From Acidipropionibacterium virtanenii (GTDB taxonomy: Bacteria; Actinomycetota; Actinomycetes; Propionibacteriales; Propionibacteriaceae), in assembly GCF_003325455.1 (NCBI RefSeq), contig NZ_CP025198.1, positions 2,852,001-2,916,000 on the forward strand: a stretch of 64,000 nt of DNA, given 5' to 3'. Position numbers and translations under genes: made by a program. Below the pieces are notes generated by a model, which made no database searches, had not been told where the DNA came from, and saw nothing but the letters and a program-made list of their open reading frames with translations. Below, piece by piece: positions 28,390-51,752 of the stretch. Positions within the stretch are counted from its first letter, which is position 1. Each line of letters opens with the position of its first letter.

Positions 28390-28749
28390 TCACCCGATGA
28401 GCATCCCCAGGCCGGCCGCCGCAGTGCCCAGCACGAGCATCCCGCCCGCATGCACCAGGCCCGCCCGGGCCCGACCCGACAGGAACAGCCGCGCCCCTTC
28501 TACTGACGCCGTGCTGAAGGTCGAGTAGCCCCCGCAGAACCCGGTGCCGATGACCGCCGTCCATGACGCCGTCATCGTGTGGTCCAGCCCCAGGCCCGTC
28601 GCCACGCCCAGGATGAAGCACGCGGTCACGTTGATGACGATCGTCCCCAACGGTGTGTTGAGACGATTGTGCCGTGCGATCACGGTGTCCATCAGGAAGC
28701 GGCTGGCGGCCCCCACTCCCCCGGCCAGCGCAACGACCAGCCAGATCAT
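28390..28749 (-). CDS. crcB: Fluoride exporter CrcB/Fluc, distal copy
   Basis: A 119-residue, four-helix fluoride channel subunit. Conserved features are GGVGAASRFLMD in helix 1, PLGTIVINVTACFILG (the family Asn) in helix 2, and the GFCGGYSTFSTASVE break motif with the Phe-box residues in helix 3. ATG 28749 overlaps the stop of the other crcB gene (ATGA), so the two are coupled and probably form a heterodimeric dual-topology channel, as small Fluc pairs do. The gene is under the minus-strand fluoride riboswitch at 29875-29948. Confidence 0.93.
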   Translation of the reverse strand: MIWLVVALAGGVGAASRFLMDTVIARHNRLNTPLGTIVINVTACFILGVATGLGLDHTMTASWTAVIGTGFCGGYSTFSTASVEGARLFLSGRARAGLVHAGGMLVLGTAAAGLGMLIG

Positions 28750-29222
28750 CGGCCCTCCCCCTCCATCGGTCGCGTCTTGAAGATCCCGCGGGCGCAGAGG
28801 ATCCCGGCGGCGGCGCACACCAGCCCTGCGGATACGGAGACCACGGCGTAGACGAGACCGAGCACGGGCGAACCGCCTCCCAGCAGCCGGTCGGTCTCCA
28901 CGGCGAAGGTCGAGTAGGTGGTGAACCCGCCGATCACACCGGTTCCGACGCCGAGCCGGACGGCCTTGCGGATCCCGGCGTCCTCACCGGTCCGGGCCAG
29001 CCCCTCCAGCAGCAGGCCGAGCACCGCGGATCCGACCAGGTTGATCGCCAGGGTCATCGCCGGGAAGTGGCCGTGCCCGGCCCCGAAGGCCCCTTCCAGA
29101 AGCGCCCTGACAAGGGTGCCGAGGCATCCCCCCGCCCCCACCAGCAGCGCCAGAGCCCACATCGAGGCCGTACTGCGCCGACCATGGCGGCGTCCACGGC
29201 CTCGCCCCGCCCCTCTTCTCAC
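28746..29222 (-). CDS. crcB: Fluoride exporter CrcB/Fluc, proximal copy
   Basis: A four-helix Fluc subunit, 158 residues from GTG 29222. The motifs are GGCLGTLVRALLE, LAINLVGSAVLGLLLE (Asn), and GVIGGFTTYSTFAVETDRLL. GTG 29222 gives a strongly basic N-terminal extension (RRGAGRGRGRRHGRR), which would hold that end in the cytosol and help set opposite topology to its partner. GGGAG precedes it within the 14-base gap after the stress-protein gene. ATG 29162 (138 residues) is the alternative and would remove the extension. Confidence 0.9.
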   Translation of the reverse strand: MRRGAGRGRGRRHGRRSTASMWALALLVGAGGCLGTLVRALLEGAFGAGHGHFPAMTLAINLVGSAVLGLLLEGLARTGEDAGIRKAVRLGVGTGVIGGFTTYSTFAVETDRLLGGGSPVLGLVYAVVSVSAGLVCAAAGILCARGIFKTRPMEGEGR

Positions 29223-29236
29223 GGATCTCCCGGTAT

Positions 29237-29794
29237 TCACGGTCTCCACGGTGTACGGGCGTCCTTCCAGTCGACGACCTCGATGGGCACGGTGAGCACC
29301 GGCCGGTGCTGATGGTGGGCCAGGTGGTTGGACACCGACCCCTCCGCCAACTCCCGGAACCGGCGTCCAGGCTTGTGGGAGCGCGATCCGACGACGAACA
29401 CCGAGGCGTCCAGGGCCCGTGCCAGGTGGGTCAGGGAGCGGTCCGGACGACCGGCCAGATACCACAGTCTCCAGTCGATCCCCACGCCCGAATCGGCGAA
29501 CACCGCCGCGGCCTGATCCTCCAGCTCTTCACGGATGGAACGCCAGTCCCGGGCCTCGGCGTCGGGGTCGATCGGGGCGTGACGGACCGTTCCGTCGCCG
29601 AACTCCTCGACGGTGTAGCGGTTCGTGTCGACGAAGGCCAGATGGACGACGTCGCCACCCAGCGACTCCGCCAGCCTCGCCGCCGTCACCGCCACCAGCG
29701 GATGCTGGCCCGGGGAGAACCCGGCGATCACCGGCCCGGACCTGAAATCGACCAGCCGCTCAAGTCCCGGCTGCGGGACGGACCGCTCTGCCAT
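29237..29794 (-). CDS. Universal stress protein family, fluoride operon
   Basis: A 185-residue UspA-fold protein. The first strand is PVIAGFSPGQHPLVAVTAARLAESL, and the nucleotide-loop region is VVGSRSHKPGRRFRELAEGSVSNHLAHHQHRPVLTVP, which keeps the G-S-V-S-x-x-L end of the ATP-binding motif. It is the first gene of the minus-strand unit, directly behind a fluoride riboswitch, and is followed by two crcB genes. Usp genes are among those known to sit under fluoride riboswitches. ATG 29794, with GGAAGGTGG about ten bases upstream. Confidence 0.88.
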   Translation of the reverse strand: MAERSVPQPGLERLVDFRSGPVIAGFSPGQHPLVAVTAARLAESLGGDVVHLAFVDTNRYTVEEFGDGTVRHAPIDPDAEARDWRSIREELEDQAAAVFADSGVGIDWRLWYLAGRPDRSLTHLARALDASVFVVGSRSHKPGRRFRELAEGSVSNHLAHHQHRPVLTVPIEVVDWKDARTPWRP

Positions 29795-29874
29795 GCGAGA
29801 CCCACCTTCCGCGGGCAGGATGCGCCCGCCTCACCGAGGACTGCGACAAGCATGGACGCCACAGCCCTTCACGA

Positions 29875-29948
29875 GACAGGGCCCATCAGCCGTACGGCGG
29901 TTCGGGGCCGGGATGCTCACCTCCGGTCCCGGGCGGGGTCCATCGCCC
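29875..29948 (-). promoter_or_regulatory. Fluoride (crcB-motif) riboswitch, minus strand
   Basis: Read on the minus strand it has the conserved blocks of the fluoride aptamer in order: GGGCGATGGACCCCGCC, then CCGAACCGCC, then GGCTGATGGGCCCTG. It is followed after about 80 bases by the Usp-crcB-crcB unit, which is the expected cargo. A GCGGGC...GCCCGC hairpin (29811-29829) lies just before the ribosome site and could be the expression platform. Confidence 0.9.
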
Positions 29949-30083
29949 AGGTCTCGCGCGGGCCTGTTCCTCCCGTCGCGATCCTTGCGCCAGCGTATAC
30001 GAGACCAACGGATCCTCCTTCCACCGTCCACGGCCGGCTCTGTTCCTCACACCTGCGCATGCCTGCGCCTGCTACTGTCGGAC

Positions 30084-30156
30084 GTGGCGATGGAACCCGC
30101 CTGGGACCGATGTCAGATGGCCCCGAACCGCCGTCCGGCTGATGGTCCCTGCACGT
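30084..30156 (+). promoter_or_regulatory. Fluoride (crcB-motif) riboswitch, plus strand
   Basis: The same blocks occur on the plus strand: GGCGATGGAACCCGCC (from 30086), CCGAACCGCC (30124-30133), GGCTGATGGTCCCTGC (30137-30152). TACTGT (30073-30078) would put the RNA start at about the first aptamer base. A 9-bp hairpin (30148-30156 with 30163-30171) overlaps the aptamer end and may be the switch. Enolase begins at 30204. Confidence 0.9.
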
Positions 30157-30203
30157 CATGGCACGTGCGGGAGACGCCGTGCACGTCAGCCAAGGAGCAC
30201 ACG

Positions 30204-31472
30204 ATGCCCACCATCACCACCCTGAACGCCCTGGAGATCCTTGACTCCCGGAGCCGCCCGACGGTCAAGGTCGTCCTGACCCTGGACGACGGCACCCGCG
30301 CACAGGCCCAGGTGCCCTCCGGAGCCTCGACCGGCACCCGCGAGGCCGTGGAACTGCGCGACGGCGACCAGTCCCGGTACCGGGGCCTGGGCGTCCGGAC
30401 GGCCGTCGCCAACGTCACCGGCCCCATCGCCCGGGAGATCATCGGGCGGCCGTTCGACTCGCTCGAGACGCTGGACCGGGCCCTCATCGCCCTGGACGGC
30501 ACCGAGCACAAGTCCGGGCTCGGCGCCAACGCGATCCTGGGGGTCTCGATGGCCTTCGCCCGCGCCCTGGCGACATCCGCCGGGCAGGAGCTGTTCGAGT
30601 TCCTGCCGTCCGTCGGCTCCCAGACGCCGCGCATGCCCGTGCCGTGCTTCAACGTTCTCAACGGCGGGGTCCACGCCGCCAATCCGCTGGACTTCCAGGA
30701 GTTCATGATCTGCCCGCTGGGAGCCCCGACGATGGCCGAGGCGGTCCGGGCGGGCTCTGAGATCTACGGGGCTCTCAGATCGCAGCTGGCCGACGCCGGC
30801 CACCCGGTCGGTCTGGGCGACGAGGGCGGCTTCGCCCCCGACATCGCCCAGCCCGAGGAGGTGCTCGACGTCATCGTGGCGGCCATCCGCGCGGCCGGCT
30901 ACACGCCGGGCCGCGACGGTGTGGCGATCGCCATGGACCCGGCCTCCTCGGAGTTCCGCGCCGACGACGGCACGTACGTGGTGGCCGGGGAGCACTTCAC
31001 CTCCGATCAGATGATCGACCGCTACCAGGCCATCGTCGACAGCTACCCGGTCTGGCTGCTGGAGGACGGGCTGGCGGAGGACGACTGGGACGGCTGGGCC
31101 CGTCTCACCGGTCGGCTGGGAGACCGGATCGAGCTGGTCGGCGACGACATCTTCTGCACCAATCCGGCCATCATCGGGCAGGGCATCGAGAAGGGCGTGG
31201 CCAGCGCCTCGCTGATCAAGCTCAACCAGATCGGCTCGGTCTCCGAGACCCTCGAGGCCATGCGGGTCTGCGCGGATGCGGGATACCGGCAGTTCATGTC
31301 GCACCGCTCGGGAGAGACTCCCGACACCTTCATCGCCGACCTGGCAGTCGCCACCGGATGCGGGCACATCAAGGCCGGGGCGCCGGCCCGAGGAGAGCGG
31401 GTGGCCAAGTACAACCGGCTCATCGAGATCTCCGCCGCCCATCCGGAGCTGCCCTACGGCCTCCCCGACTGA
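30204..31472 (+). CDS. eno: Enolase under fluoride control
   Basis: A 422-residue enolase (2-phosphoglycerate to phosphoenolpyruvate). Present are GLGANAILGVSMA, catalytic Glu about residue 207 in LGDEGGFAP, metal ligands in LEDGLAEDDWDG and VGDDIFCTN, catalytic Lys about 339 in ASLIKLNQIG, and SHRSGETPDTFIADLAV. Near the C-terminus the usual IKTGSxxRSDR is IKAGAPARGER, a difference from housekeeping enolases. Fluoride inhibits enolase, and enolase genes under fluoride riboswitches are known; this is probably a second, fluoride-induced copy. AAGGAG (30192-30197) is six bases before the ATG. Confidence 0.93.
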   Translation: MPTITTLNALEILDSRSRPTVKVVLTLDDGTRAQAQVPSGASTGTREAVELRDGDQSRYRGLGVRTAVANVTGPIAREIIGRPFDSLETLDRALIALDGTEHKSGLGANAILGVSMAFARALATSAGQELFEFLPSVGSQTPRMPVPCFNVLNGGVHAANPLDFQEFMICPLGAPTMAEAVRAGSEIYGALRSQLADAGHPVGLGDEGGFAPDIAQPEEVLDVIVAAIRAAGYTPGRDGVAIAMDPASSEFRADDGTYVVAGEHFTSDQMIDRYQAIVDSYPVWLLEDGLAEDDWDGWARLTGRLGDRIELVGDDIFCTNPAIIGQGIEKGVASASLIKLNQIGSVSETLEAMRVCADAGYRQFMSHRSGETPDTFIADLAVATGCGHIKAGAPARGERVAKYNRLIEISAAHPELPYGLPD

Positions 31473-31590: not shown

Positions 31591-32892
31591 ATGACCTCCT
31601 GGCCGGCAGAAGCGATCGCCGGGACCGTGCTCCTCGTGGTCCTGGTGTTCGCGGTCGTTCGTCCGAAGGATCTTCCCGAGGCGGTGCCGGCGGTGCCGGG
31701 AGCGCTCCTGCTGTGCCTGGTGGGCGCCATCAGCTGGACGGAGGCCTGGTCCCAGGTGACCCGGATGCTGCCGACCGTGCTCTTCCTGGCCGGGGTGCTC
31801 ATGCTGGCCAGCCTGTGCCGGGCCGAGGGGATGTTCGACGCCGCCGGCCGGCTGATGGCCAGGGGTTCCCGGGACAGCCCGGTGCGACTGCTGGGGCTGG
31901 TCTTCCTCGTCGCCTCGACGACCACCGCCCTGCTGAGCCTGGACGCCACCATCGTGCTGCTGACTCCGGTGATCTTCACCACCGCCGCGAAGGTCGGCGC
32001 GCGTCCCAAACCTTTCATCTACGGCACCGCGCACCTGTCCAACTCGGCCTCCCTGCTGCTGCCGGTCTCCAACCTCACCAATCTGCTGGCACTGAGCGCG
32101 GCGGGGATCTCCTTCCCCAGGTTCGCGGCGCTGATGGTCGGCCCCTGGCTGGTCGCGATCGGCGTCGAATACGTCGCGCACCGCCGCTATTTCGCCACGG
32201 AGCTGTCGGTCTCCTCGGGCTCAGTCCCGGCGGGCCGGGGCTCGTCGCAGGGCTCTGGGGATGACGCCGGCACGGCGGTCCCGGTCTTCTCCCTGGTGGT
32301 GCTCGGGTTGACGCTGGCCGGTTTCGTCGTGCTGTCGGTACTGGGGGCCGAACCCTTCTGGGCGGCTCTGGCCGGCGTCGCGGTGATCGGCGCGAAACGT
32401 CTCATTCGCGGCAGGACCTCCCGGAGCGCCGAGCTGAAGGATCTCGGTGCGGCCGCCAACCCGTTCTTCCTGCTCTTCGTGCTGAGTCTGTCCATCATCG
32501 TCGCGGCCGTCGTCGATCACGGCGTCGCCGCAGCGATGCGTGCGGTCATCCCGGGGGGCCAGAGCCTGGCCAGCCTGCTGATCCTGGCCCTGATCGCCGC
32601 CGTGCTGGCCAATCTGGTCAACAATCTGCCGGCCGTGCTGGTGATGCTGCCCCTGGTGGCCCCGATCGGGCCGGTGGCCGTGCTGGCAGTACTCATCGGG
32701 GTCAACGTCGGCCCGAACCTCACCTATGTCGGCTCCCTGGCGACCCTGCTCTGGCGCCGCATCGTGGCAGCCCACGATCACCGCACCGACACCGGGGAAT
32801 TCACCAGGCTGGGCCTCATCACTGTTCCCGCCTGCCTGGTGCTGTGCACAATGGCCCTGAGCGCTGCCGCTTCACTGATGGGAGTGAGTTGA
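31591..32892 (+). CDS. ArsB/NhaD-like (SLC13 superfamily) permease
   Basis: A 433-residue membrane protein with about eleven helices in two halves. Conserved spots include STTTALLSLDATIVLLTPVIF and HLSNSASLLLPVSNLTNLLALS in the first half, and NLVNNLPAVLVMLPL with NVGPNLTYVGSLATLLWRR in the second; these are the paired SNLTN/NxxGPN-type loops of the ArsB/NhaD ion-transporter group. It follows enolase by about 120 bases with its own TAGGGT six bases before the ATG, so it may be transcribed both with enolase and alone. A role in anion or sodium/proton balance during fluoride stress is inference. Confidence 0.8.
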   Translation: MTSWPAEAIAGTVLLVVLVFAVVRPKDLPEAVPAVPGALLLCLVGAISWTEAWSQVTRMLPTVLFLAGVLMLASLCRAEGMFDAAGRLMARGSRDSPVRLLGLVFLVASTTTALLSLDATIVLLTPVIFTTAAKVGARPKPFIYGTAHLSNSASLLLPVSNLTNLLALSAAGISFPRFAALMVGPWLVAIGVEYVAHRRYFATELSVSSGSVPAGRGSSQGSGDDAGTAVPVFSLVVLGLTLAGFVVLSVLGAEPFWAALAGVAVIGAKRLIRGRTSRSAELKDLGAAANPFFLLFVLSLSIIVAAVVDHGVAAAMRAVIPGGQSLASLLILALIAAVLANLVNNLPAVLVMLPLVAPIGPVAVLAVLIGVNVGPNLTYVGSLATLLWRRIVAAHDHRTDTGEFTRLGLITVPACLVLCTMALSAAASLMGVS

Positions 32893-32894
32893 CC

Positions 32895-33404
32895 ATGAGA
32901 GTCCTCGCCTGGATCGCCCCCGCCACCTGGCCGGCGGTCGTCGATGCCCTCCTCGACCACCACGGGGACGATGAGATCACGCTGGTCGCCGCCGCCGACG
33001 CCTACGCCGATTTCCCGGCCGGGCGCCTCGGCGGCCTGCTGGGGCGCCGACACCGCGACGTCGACGCCCAGGACTCCGGACTGGTCCAGGAGATGGCCCG
33101 CGATGTGCTGGCGCAGGCGGCGGGGAAGCTGGGCGACGACGTCGGCACCACGGTCCTCATCGGGCCGACCGAACGGGTGATCACCGAGGCCGCCGCCGAT
33201 GCCGACCACCTGGTGATGGCCCGCGACGGGGATCGGAGCCGACTGGGCCCGCCGAGCCTGGGAGCGCACACGAGATTCGTCATCGACCACGCCCCCTGCA
33301 CCGTCGAGCTGGTCTGGCCCGGCCAGGCACCCGGCCTGAGCACCATCCCGCCTCCCCCCGACGACGCCAGGCAGCGTCAGCCCCGCGGGCGCAGCGACGC
33401 ATAG
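32895..33404 (+). CDS. Universal stress protein family, distal fluoride arm
   Basis: A 169-residue UspA-like protein (start MRVLAWIAPATWPAVVDALL). The centre has DEITLVAAADAYADF, then VLIGPTERVITEAAADADHLVMARDGD and a closing FVIDHAPCTVELVWP. The glycine-rich ATP loop is weak, so nucleotide binding is doubtful. It starts two bases after the permease stop and so belongs to the enolase-side operon, mirroring the Usp gene on the other arm. ATG 32895 is chosen at the first strand; the frame runs back to 32844 inside the permease gene. Confidence 0.75.
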   Translation: MRVLAWIAPATWPAVVDALLDHHGDDEITLVAAADAYADFPAGRLGGLLGRRHRDVDAQDSGLVQEMARDVLAQAAGKLGDDVGTTVLIGPTERVITEAAADADHLVMARDGDRSRLGPPSLGAHTRFVIDHAPCTVELVWPGQAPGLSTIPPPPDDARQRQPRGRSDA

Positions 33405-50933: not shown

Positions 50934-51752
50934 TCAGGCGACCGTCTCGTCCCGTTCGGCCAGCAACTGCTCGATGACCTGCGCCACCCCGTCCTCGGTG
51001 TTCGGCCGGGCGATGCTCCCGGCAGCCTCCCGGGCGGCCGGCACCGCGTTGGCCACCGCCCACGACCGGCCCGCCCACCGGAGCATCTCGACGTCGTTGT
51101 CCCCGTCCCCGAAAGCCACCGCATCGGCGCTGGTCATGCCGAGGCGGTCGGCCAGTATCTGCAGCCCGGCGGACTTCGTGACCCCGGCGGCGCTGATCTC
51201 CAGCATCCCGGCCCCGGAGCTCGTGATATGCACCCGCCCGGCGCTGGGCAGCCGACGGGCCACCGCGGCCAGCTCGTGGACCGACAGGCCCGGGTGGCGG
51301 GCCACCAGCTTGAGGGTGGGCGCCCCGACCACCTCGTCGAGGCCGAGACGGGGCATGTCGGCGGGGTCGCGGTGATGATCGGTGAAGACGCACAGATCGG
51401 CGTACCCGGCCTGGGAGGCGAAGTAGGCGCCGTCGCGCTGGATGGAGGCGAAACGGGTCCGCGGCTCGACGTCCAGCAGTTCCCGGGCGAAGGCCGAGGC
51501 CACCTCGGCGCTGGTCTCCAGGTGGAAGAGCACCGTCTCGGCATGCAGATCCCAGCACACCGCGCCATTGCTGCACAGCGCCCAGCGCCCCAGCCGGTCG
51601 CGCAGCTCGTCGAGGCCGTAGAGCTGGCGGGCGGTCACCGGCACCACCGGCACACCGGCCTCCTCGGCCGCGGCGATGGCCGCCGCCGACCGCGCCGAGA
51701 TGGTTCCGGACGGGGTGAGCAGGGTGCCGTCGAGATCGGTGGCGATGAACAT
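50934..51752 (-). CDS. HAD-superfamily Cof-type phosphatase (distal)
   Basis: A 272-residue phosphatase. Motif I is FIATDLDGTLL, motif II is PVTARQLYGL, and motif III/IV is ADAVAFGDGDNDVEML, with a C2 cap domain between. Cof-type enzymes dephosphorylate sugar phosphates, phosphorylated cofactors or FMN. Its ATG overlaps the stop of the upstream paralog by one base (TGATG), so the two are co-translated. The pair is a tandem duplication, diverged in the cap domain. Confidence 0.9.
   Translation of the reverse strand: MFIATDLDGTLLTPSGTISARSAAAIAAAEEAGVPVVPVTARQLYGLDELRDRLGRWALCSNGAVCWDLHAETVLFHLETSAEVASAFARELLDVEPRTRFASIQRDGAYFASQAGYADLCVFTDHHRDPADMPRLGLDEVVGAPTLKLVARHPGLSVHELAAVARRLPSAGRVHITSSGAGMLEISAAGVTKSAGLQILADRLGMTSADAVAFGDGDNDVEMLRWAGRSWAVANAVPAAREAAGSIARPNTEDGVAQVIEQLLAERDETVA

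Follow-up and report, generated by a model that had tools for sequence, protein, structure and literature searches.

In a 64,000-nucleotide stretch of the Acidipropionibacterium virtanenii chromosome (hereafter the window), one intergenic gap (29875-30153) contains two fluoride (crcB) aptamers, one on each strand and both pointing outward. The gap is flanked by a Usp-crcB-crcB operon on the minus strand and an enolase-permease-Usp operon on the plus strand. Gene order and family searches place each aptamer in the 5' leader of a gene with a link to fluoride, in agreement with a sequence-only reading of this DNA, which held that one switch faces Usp-crcB-crcB and the other enolase. The first gene of the export operon encodes a universal stress protein (Usp; 29237..29794, minus strand; Pfam PF00582, 39.7 bits), and two genes for CrcB (Fluc) fluoride channel subunits lie on the same strand (28746..29465 for the ORF as listed, Pfam PF02537, 75.9 bits; 28390..28818, Pfam PF02537, 75.3 bits). 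Because the CrcB domain of the first CrcB ORF is confined to residues 107-222, the true start of this gene, read by eye, is probably near 29162. On the plus strand, a second, fluoride-linked enolase (30204..31472; TIGR01060, 525.8 bits) is followed by an ArsB/CitMHS-type ion permease (31591..32892; PF03600 and PF02040, both above cut-off) and by a second Usp (32844..33404; PF00582, 33.4 bits), which overlaps the permease gene. The permease, located between the fluoride-linked enolase and a Usp, probably belongs to the enolase operon. Its relatives adjoin the locus in other Acidipropionibacterium genomes, and it is possible that it is an unrecognised ion transporter of the fluoride response. 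Another enolase in the same genome (C1:2507711-2508928), which is taken as the housekeeping copy, has 55% identity to the switch-linked enolase. In a tree of 19 enolases, the four fluoride-linked enolases of Acidipropionibacterium clustered (100/100) apart from the 15 others; these 15 were taken from loci that had been retrieved on account of a switch or a Usp relative, which keeps the sample from being unbiased, and the root serves for drawing only.

The plus-strand aptamer (30083..30153) contains, in order, GGCGATGG (at 30086), GAACCGCC and GGCTGATGG-CCCTG, and the same block set runs from 29947 downward in the minus-strand aptamer (29875..29950). The sequence-only reading had claimed a full block set on both strands, facing outward, and every block that it named was located on both; its distance of 135 bases between the aptamers is corrected to 138 nt, measured between the GGCGATGG cores. 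P1 and P2 helices with the conserved GGCGAUGG, AACCGCC and GGCUGAUGG blocks are present in both aptamers. The two copies form inverted repeats, with 33-nt arms that are 94% complementary and 24-nt arms that are 92% complementary. A match to the Rfam crcB model (RF01734) on both strands, which the same reading had proposed as a check, was borne out for the plus strand and fell short for the minus strand: in cmscan, the plus element (30077-30158) scored 39.3 bits, above the gathering cut-off of 34, and the minus element (29870-29956) scored 20.8 bits, below it, with an E value of 0.002 in a 511-base search. Because a match below the cut-off could be due to chance, models were built from relatives. 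R1 and R2 were trained on sets that include the window's own sequences, so that only R3 and Rfam count as tests for the window. R3 was made from 41 aptamers, all from actinobacteria outside Acidipropionibacterium, with its rows picked and aligned by R2. This leave-genus-out model gave 66.7 bits for the plus and 62.8 bits for the minus aptamer, the next best match in the window scoring 18.1 bits. That next match (51669-51711, plus strand) is probably due to chance. A block scan allowing up to three mismatches found 91 matches in 1.39 Mb and none on a reversed (non-complemented) control, the sample being the window plus loci, some overlapping, that had been retrieved on account of a switch or a Usp relative. 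The four-mismatch level is uninformative, because it gave 34 matches against 20 on the reversed control. The block scan against its control and the R3 score rule out a chance likeness of the minus strand. Thus, it takes a model fitted to aptamers of actinobacteria to recover the minus copy, and judged from its sequence it is a fluoride aptamer by features other than curated membership of RF01734. This shows that, at its cut-off, RF01734 passes over some GC-rich members from actinobacteria in which the insert is long. The assignment of both elements as fluoride aptamers is supported by the genus-free model and by genus-wide conservation.

Across 49 aligned aptamers, 98.8% of cells pair, six of ten pairs change on both sides and none of 500 shuffles reached any of these measures, where seven to nine of the aptamers are from Acidipropionibacterium, relatedness inflates the values and the structure was used to fit the alignment. 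In this set, each of the three pairs of an additional helix, located between P1 and P2, changes on both sides. Among four distinct orthologues of the minus aptamer, two insert-helix pairs change on both sides, which is weak by itself: in this test, 108 of 500 shuffles reached the two-sided pair count and 23 of 500 the covariation score. With four to five orthologues, covariation within either leader taken singly is weak. By eye, the putative pseudoknot between the P1 loop and the 3' tail has four of five pairs in both aptamers, the third position being an A.C mismatch, and its fourth pair is A-U in one aptamer and C-G in the other. The A.C mismatch is common to both copies (29875-29950 and 30083-30153) and to orthologues, and several other actinobacterial copies have U.U at the fourth pair instead of A.C at the third. 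If protonated, an A.C pair would be sensitive to pH. A stem that would enclose each aptamer from outside is perfect here by eye (GACGUG/CACGUC and CGAGAC/GUCUCG); it was rejected, as orthologues do not clearly preserve it and, for enolase, it would precede the likely transcription start.

The pair between enolase and Usp-crcB-crcB was found in four of five Acidipropionibacterium genomes, namely that of the window, A. thoenii, A. jensenii and a metagenome-assembled genome (MAG), which carries a head-to-head pair on two contigs. Core spacings in the four are 138, 490, 521, 375 and 373 nt. In the fifth genome, the two switches occupy different loci, each accompanied by its gene, and the permease and the second Usp are still beside the Usp-crcB operon. 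The enolase of this fifth genome (L036:6434-7644), outside a pair, has kept its own switch, and its frame appears to be broken near codon 59, unless it is mis-sequenced. A copy of the switch precedes Usp-crcB-crcB in all five genomes. For A. thoenii and A. jensenii, the Usp-side copies were absent from the RF01734 matches at E 0.05 and were found by the block pattern and by R1/R2. The enolase-side copy of A. thoenii has one core change (GGCAGATGG). The MAG also has a third fluoride switch (L041:6108-6178, 53.3 bits), by eye before a MutS-like gene. In genome G019, a weak switch-like element (17.3 bits) lies ahead of enolase, Usp, crcB and crcB, all in one direction.

Head-to-head pairs also occur beyond the genus. 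A survey with R2 of 198 genomes of the family gave 72 matches in 45 genomes, and 16 of these matches (eight pairs in seven genomes) were head to head with less than 600 nt between them. The seven are the four Acidipropionibacterium genomes, G106, G108 and G113. In G106, which shares another genus with G108, the pair again stands between enolase and Usp-crcB-crcB; in G108, one side of the pair runs off the contig. Among 391 genomes of the order, many of them the same as in the family set, 47 had a match and none added a new pair. Among 394 genomes of the class, 15 had a match and one, G425, had a new pair. In another family (301 genomes), 56 matches were found in 48 genomes, with one pair, in G782, flanked by crcB-crcB and, 367 nt downstream on the other side, by a Usp gene. 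In a named collection, Xylanimicrobium pachnodae and Luteimicrobium xylanilyticum, found among Usp relatives, have pairs that both stand between enolase and MutS-like genes. A partner switch in G566 was detected only with filters off and was found again with R3. Head-to-head pairs are thus present in about eight actinobacterial genera with various partner genes, a count in which genomes of the surveys may overlap those of the named collection. The blocks were inspected in five of these genera, where both members keep the core with at most two mismatches, and in G113 and G425, where one member lacks part of the conserved core. Other arrangements were observed in the same material: in G566 (L150:3450-6292), a switch precedes genes for an inorganic pyrophosphatase, a phosphoglycerate mutase-like protein and enolase in a row; in G425 (L146:2679-4889), a fluoride switch is directly ahead of an acetyl-CoA synthetase-like gene; and Actinomyces provencensis (L066:6892-9504) has a tandem repeat of switch-Usp-crcB in which both switches score the same. 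Only 13-27 candidates were scored per genome in the R2 surveys, and the filters were strict, which means that switches and partners of low score are missed. At 40 hand-chosen single-switch loci in 39 genomes, picked from the surveys of the family and the other family whatever genes they carry, a search for overlooked partners with filters off at E 0.05 found no second switch within about 1.2 kb. As none of the 40 had a missed partner, the pairs are real but a minority. One weak partner of a single switch (L068, four mismatches) was not counted as a pair, because this level is common on the control. Outside Acidipropionibacterium, a switch precedes Usp in 39 of 76 Usp-bearing loci. By these genome comparisons, the arrangement is not unique to the window's genome.

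Both switches have a leader and a promoter-like -10 box of their own. For the enolase promoter, an extended -10 box is likely at TGC-TACTGT (30070..30078, plus strand), which was recognized by eye, and TACTGT or TAATGT with TG ahead was seen 7-9 nt before the aptamer core in all five Acidipropionibacterium genomes. The enolase transcript would start at about 30085, directly at the aptamer. The likely -10 box of the Usp-crcB promoter (TACGCT; 29992..29997, minus strand) was also read by eye, with TACGCT, TAGGCT or TAAGGT at the matching place in the five genomes and a TAnnnT about 50 nt ahead of the aptamer recurring in orthologues. This transcript would start near 29985, about 38 nt before the aptamer core. 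A sigma-70 consensus scan found no site, and neither -10 box passes it. Downstream, free folds of the enolase leader form an anti-aptamer hairpin (30147..30171, plus strand), in which the aptamer 3' strand CCCUGCACGU pairs with ACGUGCGGG, ahead of a Shine-Dalgarno-like AAGGAG (30192..30197). The 3' strand pairs with the downstream strand in the free minimum-energy fold of all five orthologues, with 98.2% of cells paired; all changes are one-sided and no pair is two-sided, so there is no covariation in this pairing. In the Usp leader, folds show a GC-rich hairpin (29811..29829, minus strand) directly before the ribosome-binding site, a Shine-Dalgarno-like GGAAGGTGG (29802..29810, minus strand), and the left arm of this hairpin can instead pair with the aptamer 3' strand. 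Hairpins resembling it were seen by eye in other actinobacterial leaders.

The alternative pairing was compared with shuffles in 37 actinobacterial leaders, one of which (L067) was mis-parsed. On average it was stronger than in the shuffles (mean z -1.37), and 11 of 37 leaders reached p<0.05, the other 26 not being significant individually; the values for the window were p 0.02 (enolase) and 0.06 (Usp). None of the 37 leaders has a U-tract, and a terminator consensus scan found no terminator. When the aptamer was imposed in a thermodynamic model, opening of the ribosome site rose in all five Usp leaders of the genus, and opening of the Usp start codon fell from 0.40 to 0.17 in A. thoenii and from 0.85 to 0.11 in A. 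jensenii. In the five enolase leaders, ribosome-site opening went down in two, up in two and was unchanged in one. Because no U-tract is present, translational control appears somewhat likelier than intrinsic termination. We lean to translational control for the Usp side only, since the modelled ribosome site opens in five of five Usp leaders and the enolase leaders are inconsistent.

We consider it likely that two separate ON-type fluoride riboswitches occupy the gap and that each begins a divergent transcript of its own or lies close to its 5' end. Computation shows the two aptamers, the gene order, the conservation, the recurrence and a possible alternative pairing. Fluoride on the minus-strand aptamer would give more Usp-CrcB-CrcB and hence export, and fluoride on the plus-strand aptamer would give more of the second enolase, the permease and Usp, where the extra enolase would make up for the fluoride-poisoned step. 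In each leader, the 3' (pseudoknot) strand of the aptamer would be able to pair with a downstream strand; fluoride would keep the 3' strand in the pseudoknot, so that the downstream strand forms its own hairpin beside the ribosome-binding site. Here we infer fluoride binding, the direction of control, the promoters and the translational block, the last since no U-tract is present. A 'target protection' role of the enolase, as a second copy with the permease and the second Usp, is presumed in this model. One fluoride signal probably turns on both defences, because the layout is kept in relatives and recurs in other actinobacteria; to this extent the interpretation given by the sequence-only reading is largely upheld.

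The mode of control is where a rival explanation weighs most. The pair could be real and act on transcription, with the anti-aptamer hairpin as a U-less actinobacterial or Rho-assisted terminator, and we regard this as a serious possibility of below-even probability. A terminator overlaps the crcB motif in many known cases, according to excerpts of PMC2864571, and the ribosome site of the enolase leader is unresponsive in the model; against this stand the lack of a U-tract in all 37 leaders and, by eye, the hairpin directly before the ribosome-binding site in Usp leaders. Two other explanations are improbable. It might be that only the plus (enolase) element works and that the minus copy is a decaying inverted duplicate, as its RF01734 score under the cut-off and the incomplete core of one pair member in G113 and G425 would suggest. 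However, the minus copy has its named core blocks intact, R3 scores it at 62.8 bits, a copy stands before Usp-crcB-crcB in five of five genomes of the genus, a switch is ahead of Usp at 39 of 76 Usp loci outside the genus, and there are some two-sided changes, which are weak evidence. Least probable of all is that the inverted repeat works mainly at the DNA level, as a cruciform, an invertible promoter segment or a regulator site, with the riboswitch likeness incidental or secondary. The 33- and 24-nt arms (94% and 92% complementary) do flank the likely promoters, but the same aptamers occur singly in many genomes, and the enolase-side -10 motif is on the enolase side in the four paired genomes and in the split one. 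As this motif is fixed there in all five genomes of the genus, no inversion of the promoter segment was seen.

The two riboswitches of the preferred reading may also exchange sequence. The ends of the window's enolase aptamer are identical to four orthologues (16/16 and 13/13), and its interior matches them at 11-12 of 23 insert positions and 0-1 of 4 P2-loop positions. Against the neighbouring Usp aptamer in the same genome, the same interior matches at 20 of 28 and 3 of 4 positions, and for other Usp copies the counts are 14-18 of 28 and 0-2 of 4. In the pair of the MAG, the P2 loop is common to both members, and both members of the G782 pair have GATAG, which is absent from the others among 26 elements compared. 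We tentatively suggest that the window's enolase aptamer is a mosaic, with enolase-type ends and an interior (insert helix and P2 loop) nearer to the type of its neighbour. With five genomes, gene conversion is tentatively preferred as the source of the mosaic; the alternative is a long insert retained from an ancestor, since insert length differs between lineages. It is conceivable, with somewhat less than even chances, that head-to-head switches recur as a module in which gene conversion from one inverted copy to the other keeps the two aptamers alike.

In the literature, the crcB motif was described with mutS, transporters and other genes downstream and with overlapping terminators noted (Weinberg et al. 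2010; excerpts of PMC2864571), and enolase is often under fluoride switches (excerpts of PMC11139923). The locus shares with this motif (RF01734) the aptamer blocks, the helices and the downstream gene classes (crcB, enolase, mutS), and differs from it in having a head-to-head pair within a single gap, an additional helix located between P1 and P2, and a leader with a hairpin beside the ribosome-binding site and no U-tract. Contiguous riboswitches are treated in PMC12452182, whose excerpts name fluoride once and contain neither 'divergent' nor 'head-to-head'. Tandem switches as presented there are likewise two switches close together; they act on one gene, whereas those of the window are on opposite strands and serve different operons. 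Single switches before Usp-crcB-crcB (L108, L110 and Cellulosimicrobium loci) have the same gene order and switch and, unlike the pair in the window, no head-to-head partner. Excerpts of PMC13273304 and PMC7266159 make no mention of head-to-head fluoride pairs. The sequence-only reading knew of no described pair, and there was likewise none among the matches listed in the open-licence PMC literature. Thus, the riboswitch family is known and the head-to-head arrangement is apparently undescribed.

The locus suggests that one ion signal is probably wired through two RNA switches into divergent operons, one for export and one for a spare copy of the enzyme that fluoride poisons; the layout recurs with other partner genes. 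The pair lends itself naturally to a two-reporter test of whether riboswitches are tuned to match, and it draws attention to a lineage of fluoride-linked enolases in which sensitivity to fluoride can be measured. If gene conversion does match the aptamers, the two divergent operons would keep a matched response to one ion.
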